From assembly GCA_000996085.1 (NCBI GenBank), contig LBYG01000008.1, positions 1 to 49,050 of the forward strand: a stretch of DNA of 49,050 nt, read 5' to 3'. This document shows, piece by piece, positions 3,515 to 6,204 of this stretch (position 1 is its first letter; each line of letters starts with the position of its first letter). The notes under the pieces are model-generated. The model worked only from the letters and a program-made list of their open reading frames with translations, ran no database searches and was not told the origin of the DNA. This DNA comes from Parcubacteria group bacterium GW2011_GWB1_40_14 (GTDB taxonomy: Bacteria; Patescibacteriota; Minisyncoccia; Terrybacterales; GWB1-40-14). A program made the position numbers and the translations under genes.

Positions 3515-3889
3515 TTAGTGCGGGCTGATCTTTCGAAGATCACCACCATGCGTGCCGTAGACCTTGGTCTTGACGACCTTGATCCAGTGATTGCCTGGGC
3601 GGCACATGGCCGACTTGCGATCCTTGCTCACCTTGACGCTGCCGGCGAAGTCCACGTTGGCGTAGAAGTCGTGCGGACGACAGATCGCCATAGGAGCAAC
3701 GTAGGTGCGCGAAGAAGGATCTTCTTCCTCTTCGGCGTCTTTCCCGATCATAACGGCCGTAAGTCCGGCCATATCGGAAAGGAGCTTTTCGGTGATCTCC
3801 ACAACAGAGTCATCAAGAACCAGCTCCGACACCGCGGCGAGATCTTCCGACGACTCGTTGGCCGATGCGGGCTGGATGCTTTCTGCCAT
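3515..3889 (-). CDS. Uncharacterised 124-residue protein with paired CRP motifs
   Basis: I do not recognise a family. The N-terminal half is acidic (a run of Glu around residue 52). The C-terminal half is basic and contains two similar motifs, CRPHDFY and CRPGNHW, about 27 residues apart, which could be a metal- or nucleic-acid-binding pair; that is speculation. The reading is supported by a strong promoter (3943-3971), an AGAGAGG Shine-Dalgarno 10 nt before the ATG and a perfect terminator after the stop. Codons are GC-rich compared with most neighbours, as in the ribosomal and chaperone genes here, suggesting high expression. The overlapping opposite-strand frame has none of these signals. 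Confidence 0.75.
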   Translation of the reverse strand: MAESIQPASANESSEDLAAVSELVLDDSVVEITEKLLSDMAGLTAVMIGKDAEEEEDPSSRTYVAPMAICRPHDFYANVDFAGSVKVSKDRKSAMCRPGNHWIKVVKTKVYGTHGGDLRKISPH

Positions 3890-3942
3890 TTCTAGAAAAC
3901 CTCTCTATGTTTTCAAAGTACAAACGTACTTTGTATAAAAAT

Positions 3943-3971
3943 AGTCTATCATATAAAAGGAAATATGTCAA
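3943..3971 (-). promoter_or_regulatory. Sigma70-type promoter abutting repeat element copy 1
   Basis: TTGACA (3966-3971), 17-bp spacer, TAGACT (3943-3948). The first four bases of the -35 are the TTGA flanking the repeat at 3972-4098. It drives the gene at 3515-3889 with a leader of about 46 nt. Confidence 0.8.
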
Positions 3972-4194: not shown

Positions 4195-4473
4195 ATGAAA
4201 CCGGGTATAAGCACCATTCAAACGCCTTATATATTAGTACAAGATGAGAACGATCCAAGAAACGGCCAAATCGCCATAGTTTTGGGAATCAAAACAATTA
4301 CACCTACTGACGGCAAGGGCTATCAATGCCTTTTAATAAAATTTTCCGATTGGGAACATCAATATGTTCCGCTATCAGAAATAATCGGTGTAGCAGAAAA
4401 CCCAAAGTATCATCTGCTCTCTCCGGAAGAAATTTACGAATTTAAAACAAAACCGCCCAGCCCTAAAAATTAG
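4195..4473 (+). CDS. Uncharacterised 92-residue protein
   Basis: I do not recognise this small soluble protein. It has alternating hydrophobic strands (PYILVQDE, GQIAIVLGI, CLLIKFSDW, QYVPLSEIIGV) that read like a small beta barrel followed by a short helix, and it ends in a Lys/Pro-rich tail. No clear Shine-Dalgarno precedes the ATG. A weak promoter is possible at TTGACC (4132) with TAAATG 17 bp on. Its stop lies inside the terminator hairpin at 4451-4488. It has no operon partners; copy 1 of the promoter element lies upstream and points the other way. Confidence 0.65.
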   Translation: MKPGISTIQTPYILVQDENDPRNGQIAIVLGIKTITPTDGKGYQCLLIKFSDWEHQYVPLSEIIGVAENPKYHLLSPEEIYEFKTKPPSPKN

Positions 4474-4488
4474 AGCCGGACGGTTTTT
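4451..4488 (+). terminator. Terminator with CCGCCCAG-type repeat stem
   Basis: AACCGCCCAGCCCTAA pairs with TTAGAGCCGGACGGTT and is followed by TTTTT. The stop codon of the preceding gene is within the loop side. One of a recurring terminator family in this window. Confidence 0.75.
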
Positions 4489-4492
4489 ACTT

Positions 4493-4526
4493 GCCCAGCT
4501 CTAATCCCTAGTGGATTAGGGTTGGG
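4493..4526. repeat. CCCAGCTCTAAT-type hairpin directly before a -35 box
   Basis: CCCAGCTCTAATCC pairs with GGATTAGGGTTGGG. Its last base abuts TTGACA at 4527. Confidence 0.7.
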
Positions 4527-4555
4527 TTGACAAAATGATATATTTATGATACGAT
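4527..4555 (+). promoter_or_regulatory. Sigma70-type promoter of the micro-ORF
   Basis: Perfect TTGACA (4527-4532), 17-bp spacer, TACGAT (4550-4555). Leader of about 36 nt to the ATG at 4598. Confidence 0.8.
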
Positions 4556-4597
4556 ATTAATTACAACGTACTTTTACCGCATTCGGGAGGATACCTA

Positions 4598-4714
4598 ATG
4601 TTTGGTTCAACGCGTCGCAACGGCATGATCCGAAGGGTCATCCGCCTCAACGGCAAACTCTTCGGCTTCAAGCCTCGTCTCATCCCTGTTCCAATCCCGG
4701 TCACAAACCGCTAA
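4598..4714 (+). CDS. 38-residue, very basic micro-protein
   Basis: A complete small transcription unit: consensus-like promoter, GGGAGG Shine-Dalgarno 7 nt before ATG, 38 codons, and a strong terminator 7 nt after the stop. The peptide begins MFGSTRRNGMIRRVIR and ends PVPIPVTNR, with about eight Arg/Lys and no acidic residue. Arginine codons are mostly CGT/CGC and leucine CTC, codon use typical of highly expressed genes. I recognise no family. It could be a ribosome- or nucleic-acid-binding peptide or an unannotated small ribosomal protein; size and charge are the only support. Alternatively it is a leader peptide, but no gene follows before the terminator. Confidence 0.7.
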   Translation: MFGSTRRNGMIRRVIRLNGKLFGFKPRLIPVPIPVTNR

Positions 4715-4720
4715 ACAAAT

Positions 4721-4780
4721 GGCTCCGATAATTCGCCTCCGTCAGTTGACGGATGGCGAATCGGAGCCTTTAACTTTTTA
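4721..4780 (+). terminator. Intrinsic terminator after the micro-ORF
   Basis: GGCTCCGA pairs with TCGGAGCC, with inner arms ATTCGCC / GGCGAAT and TCCGTCA / TGACGGA, followed by TTTAACTTTTTA. A very stable long hairpin. Confidence 0.8.
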
Positions 4781-4839
4781 TGAACAGGATTGTGTTATTA
4801 TAAGCATTATTGTAATATATGACTTGTTAAATAAGCTTT

Positions 4840-4973: not shown

Positions 4974-6204
4974 ATGATCTTCAAAAAAGCTTCTGAAAAA
5001 ATTAATACATTCATACCCAAAGAAGCATTGTTGCTTTCCGGACTTATTTTTTTAAGTTATGTTCTTGGTCTTGTGCGCGACAGAATATTTGCGCGTACTT
5101 TCGGTTTAAGTTCCGCGCTTGATGCGTACAACGCGGCATTTATTTTACCCGAACTGTTCATTGATGTTCTAATAAGCGGGGCTTTGGGCGCCGCGTTCAT
5201 TCCGCTCTTTGTAGAAATTTACAAAAAAGATAAAGCGCGCAGCGAAGAATTTGCAAACACCACCATAACCTCTGCTGTGCTTGTAATGATAATAGGCGCC
5301 GCAGTATTAATATTGTTCGCGCCCAAAACCGTTTCTTTAATAGTTCCCGGATTTAACGCTGAAAACCAGTTGCTCTATTCAAATCTGCTCAGAATAATGG
5401 CGCTATCCCCTATAATTTTCGCGTTATCTATATCTTTGGGAGAAATTCTGGTGGCAAAAAGACAATTTTTATTCTATGGCCTGGCGCCGATACTTTATAA
5501 CTTCGGGATAATTTTGGGCACAATAATATTAAGCCCAAAGATAGGAATTTTTGGCGCGGCCATAGGCAGTATTTTGGGAGCATTGCTTTATCTTGCCATA
5601 CGGCTATTGGGAATATTTAGATCCGATTTCTCACTTAAGCCGGCATTTAATATAAAAATGCCGGAATTCCGCAAACTTTTGGTTCTTATGTTGCCCAAAA
5701 TGTTTGGCCATCCGATAGAGCCTCTTACGTTTTTGTTCTTTACCGCAGCAGCCAGTAGAATAGGCAGCGGGGACATAAGCGCGATAAGTTTCGGCCGCAA
5801 TTTCCAAAGCGTCCCCGTGGCGCTAATTGGCATAGCTTTTTCTATAGTTGTTTTTCCTCGAAAGGTTTTTTGGAGGAGGAGAATTTACCCAAGAAGCCAT
5901 ACAAAGAACTTCGCTGATACTTGGATTCTTTTCTATTTCGATACCGCTTGAAAGCTTATCGCATCTTTTAAGCCGTGCTTTTTTTGCCACCAAAAACACT
6001 TTCATCCCGGTTTGTGCCGCTTTTGCGGGATTGCTTACTATAGTAATAACAACAAATTATCTCTCGCCTACTTTGGGCATAATTGCTTTGCCGATAGCTT
6101 TTGCCGCAGGAACCGCAACAAAAATATTATTGCTTGGCGCAATATTGCCTCTACGCGTACGTTTTATACGTAAAAACTCTTTACTTGACGTAGCATCGAT
6201 ATAA
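4974..6204 (+). pseudogene. murJ: murJ/mviN lipid II flippase, frameshifted with an internal gap
   Basis: The first frame (4974 to about 5860) is a normal MurJ N-terminal half: GLIFLSYVLGLVRDRIFARTFG, then the ALDAYNAAFILPELF signature and about eight membrane segments up to IGIAFSIVVFP. The frame then breaks. A second frame (from about 5848 to 6204) resumes with ERFFGGGEFTQEAI and further membrane helices, and ends after LPLRVRFIRKN. Against the family pattern about 60 residues are missing between VVFP and the FGGGEFT segment. The C-terminus is also short. MurJ flips lipid II for wall synthesis and is normally indispensable, so either an intact copy exists elsewhere or this is a collapsed assembly. 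Repeat copy 2 starts 13 bp after the stop. Confidence 0.8.

Follow-up and report, generated by a model that had tools for sequence, protein, structure and literature searches.

Does the 38-codon open reading frame within positions 4527-4780 of the window belong to a real gene, and what might its product do in the cell? The window, the whole stretch of 49,050 nucleotides that was analyzed, is contig 8 of a fragmented metagenome assembly (G000; 0.94 Mb in 38 contigs, completeness 93%) whose host is a Terrybacteria-like Patescibacterium. For comparison, we used a sister genome of the same genus, Candidatus Terrybacteria bacterium RIFCSPHIGHO2_01_FULL_43_35 (G001). Gene callers usually pass over very short genes, and Patescibacteria are difficult to grow in culture; the strongest small products of this group may have gone unseen. 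Throughout, P0001 denotes the 38-aa product of the micro-gene, and P0002 and P0003 denote two small G001 proteins compared with it.

Anatomy of the micro-gene unit

The micro-gene and its divergent neighbor comprise these features:

3515-3889 (−): divergent 124-aa gene with an acidic N-terminal half; promoter subtype and dialect codons as in the micro-gene
3943-3971 (−): promoter of the 124-aa gene, TTGACA-N12-TATGATA, located by the promoter scan and the subtype motif
4527-4555 (+): micro-gene promoter of the TTGACA-N12-TATGATA subtype, with −35 TTGACA, 17-nt spacer, −10 TACGAT and extended −10 TG
4585-4590 (+): Shine-Dalgarno (SD) sequence GGGAGG, 7 nt from the ATG
4598-4714 (+): 38-codon basic microprotein gene, MFGSTRRNGMIRRVIRLNGKLFGFKPRLIPVPIPVTNR (ATG at 4598, stop codon at 4712-4714)
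4721-4768 (+): terminator hairpin (−35.8 kcal/mol, z −8.4)

The near-consensus promoter with a 17-bp spacer, the strong SD sequence, the Arg/Lys-rich frame devoid of acidic residues and the strong terminator of the initial annotation were all recovered, and the promoter has an extended −10 element besides. The encoded protein has nine Lys/Arg and no Asp/Glu among its 38 residues (net charge +9). The hairpin starts 7 nt 3' of the stop codon and is followed by TTTAACTTTTT, which provides a T-rich tail at 4769-4779; it is missing from the terminator-scan listing, presumably because its stem is bulged. Further 3' on the same strand lie tRNA-Ile and then murJ.

The arrangement was compared with 5000 dinucleotide-preserving shuffles of positions 4476-4838. 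A promoter of equal quality arose in 344 of them and a frame of 38 or more codons behind an SD sequence in 76, while the two occurred in the proper arrangement in a single shuffle and together with a hairpin in none. On both strands of the 49-kb window, the micro-gene is the sole complete promoter/SD-ORF/hairpin unit; one further promoter-plus-ORF pair has a weaker hairpin. Based on these unit statistics, on the frame-specific codons and on a probable relative in G001 (both below), the micro-gene is almost certainly a real gene, as was proposed initially, and the strong expression claimed with it is probable.

Two observations concern the flanks. A 92-aa orphan ORF (4195-4473, +) has a hairpin at its end just 5' of the micro-gene promoter, and yielded no family match. 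Downstream, murJ (4974-6204, +) is read in two overlapping frames of 325 and 118 aa, corresponding to a single 449-aa frame in G001; the split reflects a frameshift or an assembly error.

A codon dialect and a shared promoter subtype

The codons of the micro-gene had been described as optimal, but they differ from those of the host ribosomal proteins and EF-Tu. In the pooled set of host ribosomal proteins, IF-1, NusG and EF-Tu, GC3 is 0.34, ATC encodes 11 of 61 Ile, CTC encodes 1 of 68 Leu, and 32% of two-fold C/T codons end in C; the corresponding values in the micro-gene are 0.68, 4 of 4, 3 of 3 and 5 of 6. It thus conforms to a dialect that is GC3-rich, uses ATC and CTC, and avoids ATA, AGA and TTA. 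The same habit is seen in the divergent 124-aa gene (GC3 0.70) and in a 467-aa gene on contig 9 (GC3 0.73).

A dialect table was trained on the 124-aa gene together with its G001 counterpart and on the 467-aa gene, with the micro-gene left out. With this table, the 4598-4714 frame scored 27.4 bits and the other five frames at most 1.2, and the score was reached by none of 20,000 equal-composition base shuffles and by none of 100,000 synonymous resamples drawn from the usual host codon frequencies. This frame-specific signal is the strongest single evidence that the 38-codon frame is coding. When 942,928 bases of G000 were scanned, only the 467-aa and 124-aa genes outscored the micro-gene as real-looking genes, and the rest of the list consisted of their antisense shadows, one simple-sequence stretch and short low scores. 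The antisense frame at 4561-4704 was also considered as a gene and rejected, with a negative dialect score.

The 467-aa gene (L112:16588-17991, +) has its GC3 of 0.73 in a genome of 0.36 and no Pfam match. Its G001 orthologue is 41% identical over the C-terminal part and has a GC3 of 0.79 over the frame read; a weak orthologue in a further genome, G003 (E 1.8e-4), reaches 0.88 over the frame read, a value that is less telling because G003 is GC-rich overall. In G001, ordinary genes have a GC3 of 0.42, the 124-aa counterpart has 0.64, and six genes score as dialect. Four further dialect-scoring genes of that genome are L183:10674-10880 (−), L183:11082-11351 (−), L190:1120-1599 (+) and L194:14066-14329 (+), one of which encodes an 87-aa protein of charge +19. 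Maintained usage fits the dialect better than recent gene transfer does.

The dialect genes also share a promoter. The window has two sites of the motif TTGACA-N(10-13)-TATGATA, upstream of the micro-gene and of the 124-aa gene (shuffle expectation 0.00); because the motif was defined on these two sites, they are not independent evidence, and it is the other three sites in the genome that count. Over the whole of G000, TTGACA-N(11-13)-TATGATA has five sites (none in the reversed control), which precede the micro-gene, the 124-aa gene, the 467-aa gene, infA-rpmJ and a 75-aa small gene, and all three clear dialect genes have the N12 form. In G001, the 124-aa counterpart is preceded by the same promoter subtype. 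A wider extended −10 form gave 27 sites in G000 (control, 3), located upstream of small stand-alone genes, rpsL, a tRNA cluster and a tmRNA-like sequence; infA-rpmJ, rpsL and the tmRNA-like sequence are what we take these loci to be by eye. With such users, the TTGACA-N12-TATGATA class is probably a high-output promoter. The description of the micro-gene as self-contained therefore holds for its transcript, while the gene itself shares its promoter and codon class with its divergent neighbor.

The 124-aa protein is a candidate partner of the micro-gene product. Its structure model was too poor for use (pLDDT 43.5), and a domain common to the 124-aa and 467-aa genes was considered and dropped, as the comparison gave no support. 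Within 3890-3971 (−), the −10 element is closely followed by an inverted repeat, CAAAGTAC-GTTT-GTACTTTG, at the start of the 124-aa transcript, and the micro-gene has ACGTAC at 4566-4571, which resembles half of it; a shared operator is possible. A broader and tentative proposal is that Terrybacteria keep a tiny set of single-gene units with one promoter subtype and a non-ribosomal codon dialect, in which the 38-aa and 124-aa proteins would form a co-expressed pair. Under this proposal, the dialect would be selected for extreme output or a special translation setting rather than recently transferred, since it is kept in the diverged 467-aa orthologues (GC3 0.73, 0.79 and 0.88). A selected dialect would point to the products that these minimal cells make in the largest amount.

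Relatives of the microprotein in the sister genome

Searched against 384 genomes of the class, the 38-aa protein scored convincingly against itself alone; weaker matches lay inside other frames, ran across stops or lacked a start context, and E-values are weak for proteins as short as this one. It had no phage match better than E 5 to 10 and no match in Pfam, PHROGs, NCBIfam or PDB sequences, and a degenerate pattern of it found nothing in viral contigs. We conclude that the micro-gene is a genuine, previously unnamed and lineage-restricted basic microprotein gene.

A relative was sought by gene anatomy instead. A scan for strong-promoter units over 827 kb of G001 identified P0003, a basic 56-aa protein encoded downstream of argS in a unit with an extended −10 promoter close to consensus, the sequence AAGGAGGATAC and a hairpin that carries a T-run. 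Like the micro-gene, it has a strong extended −10 promoter, the SD region GGAGGATAC, a basic N-terminus, a core PRLI-x-VP-x-PV (PRLILVPVPV in P0003, PRLIPVPIPV in the micro-gene), the same terminal AACCGCTAA with NR-stop, and a terminator hairpin. It differs in its length, its locus, a longer 5' UTR, two acidic residues and non-dialect codons (dialect score −11 bits). The similarity spans 13 residues, and P0003 ranks first by score among 1951 small SD-ORFs of G001; because the shuffle p is only 0.002-0.006, the case for kinship rests on rank and anatomy jointly. The core motif, itself defined post hoc from the match already in hand, occurs once in each of G000 and G001, with 0.0 expected in permuted frames. 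Differences within the core of 10 codons fall on 8 of 10 third positions but on 2 of 20 others (Fisher p 3e-4, in one short comparison chosen post hoc). Judged from these sequence features, the micro-gene is likely kin of P0003, and it carries the core, basic N-terminus, NR-stop and terminator of a family that is defined here and has very few members.

The two genes share no neighborhood: the micro-gene lies beside tRNA-Ile and murJ, whereas P0003 follows argS, as does a 47-aa basic microgene of G000 (contig 22, L121:9385-9528, −; GC3 0.68), which has a long 5' region and a strong promoter. The 47-aa unit and P0003 occupy a syntenic argS locus and resemble each other (pairwise E 6e-4); the 47-aa unit has no direct similarity to the micro-gene (p 0.29).

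The place in G001 that is syntenic to the micro-gene, marked by a histidine kinase (52% identical), the 124-aa counterpart and murJ, contains another small ORF, P0002. Sitting between the 124-aa counterpart and murJ on the matching relative strand, sharing TRRN(GMI)RRxxRLN with the micro-gene (p 0.002-0.003) and scoring almost as well as P0003 through a different segment, P0002 was initially read as the orthologue, the gene then decaying or evolving fast in G001. We downgraded it because it has neither dialect codons (−29 bits) nor a strong promoter; it is also unrelated to P0003 (p 0.92), and as a query across the class it gave chance-like matches only. True orthology of P0002 is thus doubtful.

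Proposed role and alternative readings

An AlphaFold2 model computed without an alignment contains one helix, residues 5-21, and no other element, at moderate confidence (pLDDT 68); the helix has an ordinary hydrophobic moment. We propose that a strong sigma70-type extended −10 promoter would drive a short mRNA with a good ribosome-binding site for translation and the strong hairpin at its end, and that its product may be an abundant cytoplasmic protein. The Arg-rich N-terminal helix would bind a polyanion, with RNA or the ribosome as the likeliest target, and the extended Pro/Val tail might serve to dock the protein on a partner. Polyanion binding is the simplest reading of a protein that has nine basic residues, no acidic ones and no evident signal for export. 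On balance, we favor by a modest degree the full account, in which a genuine single-gene unit for a 38-aa, +9 microprotein is one of a few stand-alone genes with strong promoters (three of them clearly sharing the dialect) and has a relative in the sister species, with an abundant, cytoplasmic, polyanion-binding product. Within it, expression level and cellular location are what we infer from the gene and protein features, and binding to RNA or the ribosome in particular, suggested by charge and shape, is a speculative choice of target.

Other readings give the same DNA a different use. The unit might encode a small regulatory RNA that ends in a strong terminator and contains the open frame only incidentally, since its transcript is short and monocistronic with a very stable hairpin, and some sites of the promoter class precede RNA genes (the tRNA cluster and the tmRNA-like sequence). 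However, the RNA without its terminator folds no better than shuffles (z −1.0) and matches no Rfam family, the codon signal is confined to the sense frame, and a good SD sequence stands 7 nt 5' of the ATG; the folding and the frame-specific codons together make a non-coding RNA very improbable. A leader peptide, whose translation would control whether transcription passes the hairpin into tRNA-Ile and murJ, would explain why the hairpin lies 7 nt past the stop codon with these two genes following on the plus strand, yet no antiterminator fold was seen in the RNA, and in G001 tRNA-Ile and murJ are on opposite strands. Moreover, a leader attenuator would be expected to keep the same downstream gene across species, and P0003, insofar as it is a relative, lies in a similar layout downstream of argS and not upstream of tRNA-Ile or murJ. 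This other context of the probable relative weighs against the leader reading, the least credible of those considered here.

Some small basic Pro/Arg peptides are antimicrobials, and the net charge of +9, the predicted N-terminal helix and the Pro-rich tail would also suit a cationic peptide, bacteriocin-like or host-directed, that is secreted or acts on membranes. No signal peptide was recognized by eye, no recognized immunity or transporter gene adjoins the micro-gene, the helix is unexceptional in its hydrophobic moment, and the protein matches no family; such a peptide is unlikely, although less so than an RNA or a leader.

Returning to an abundant cytoplasmic protein, the micro-gene can be set beside known systems. 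Bacterial small proteins below 50 aa are a general class, with catalogues such as PMC11364881 and PMC11796252, and the micro-gene resembles its members as a short, lineage-restricted stand-alone gene with its own promoter and terminator and without a recognized domain; it differs in its unusual dialect and in a promoter subtype shared with two other dialect genes, and lacks a database match as described above. The ribosomal proteins bL36 and bL34 are likewise short, basic and Arg/Lys-rich, but the micro-gene protein has no Pfam match to them or to others, and bL36 is encoded elsewhere in G000, after infA.

The promoter subtype and the codon dialect offer two independent, homology-free handles for finding microgenes. 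In a uniform scan for units composed of a promoter, an SD sequence, an ORF of 22-110 aa and a terminator, G000 contained 11 units and G001 contained 14 (reversed controls, 1 and 4), and the hairpin of the micro-gene was the most stable among all 25. The scan also recovered other small genes that are apparently conserved between the two Terrybacteria. An extremely acidic 53-aa microgene, found at L108:625-786 (+) in G000 (charge −24) and at L205:18439-18600 (−) in G001 (charge −25), has a near-identical SD region, GGGGAGGTGAGCAGT, and similar promoters in the two genomes, and looks conserved between them.
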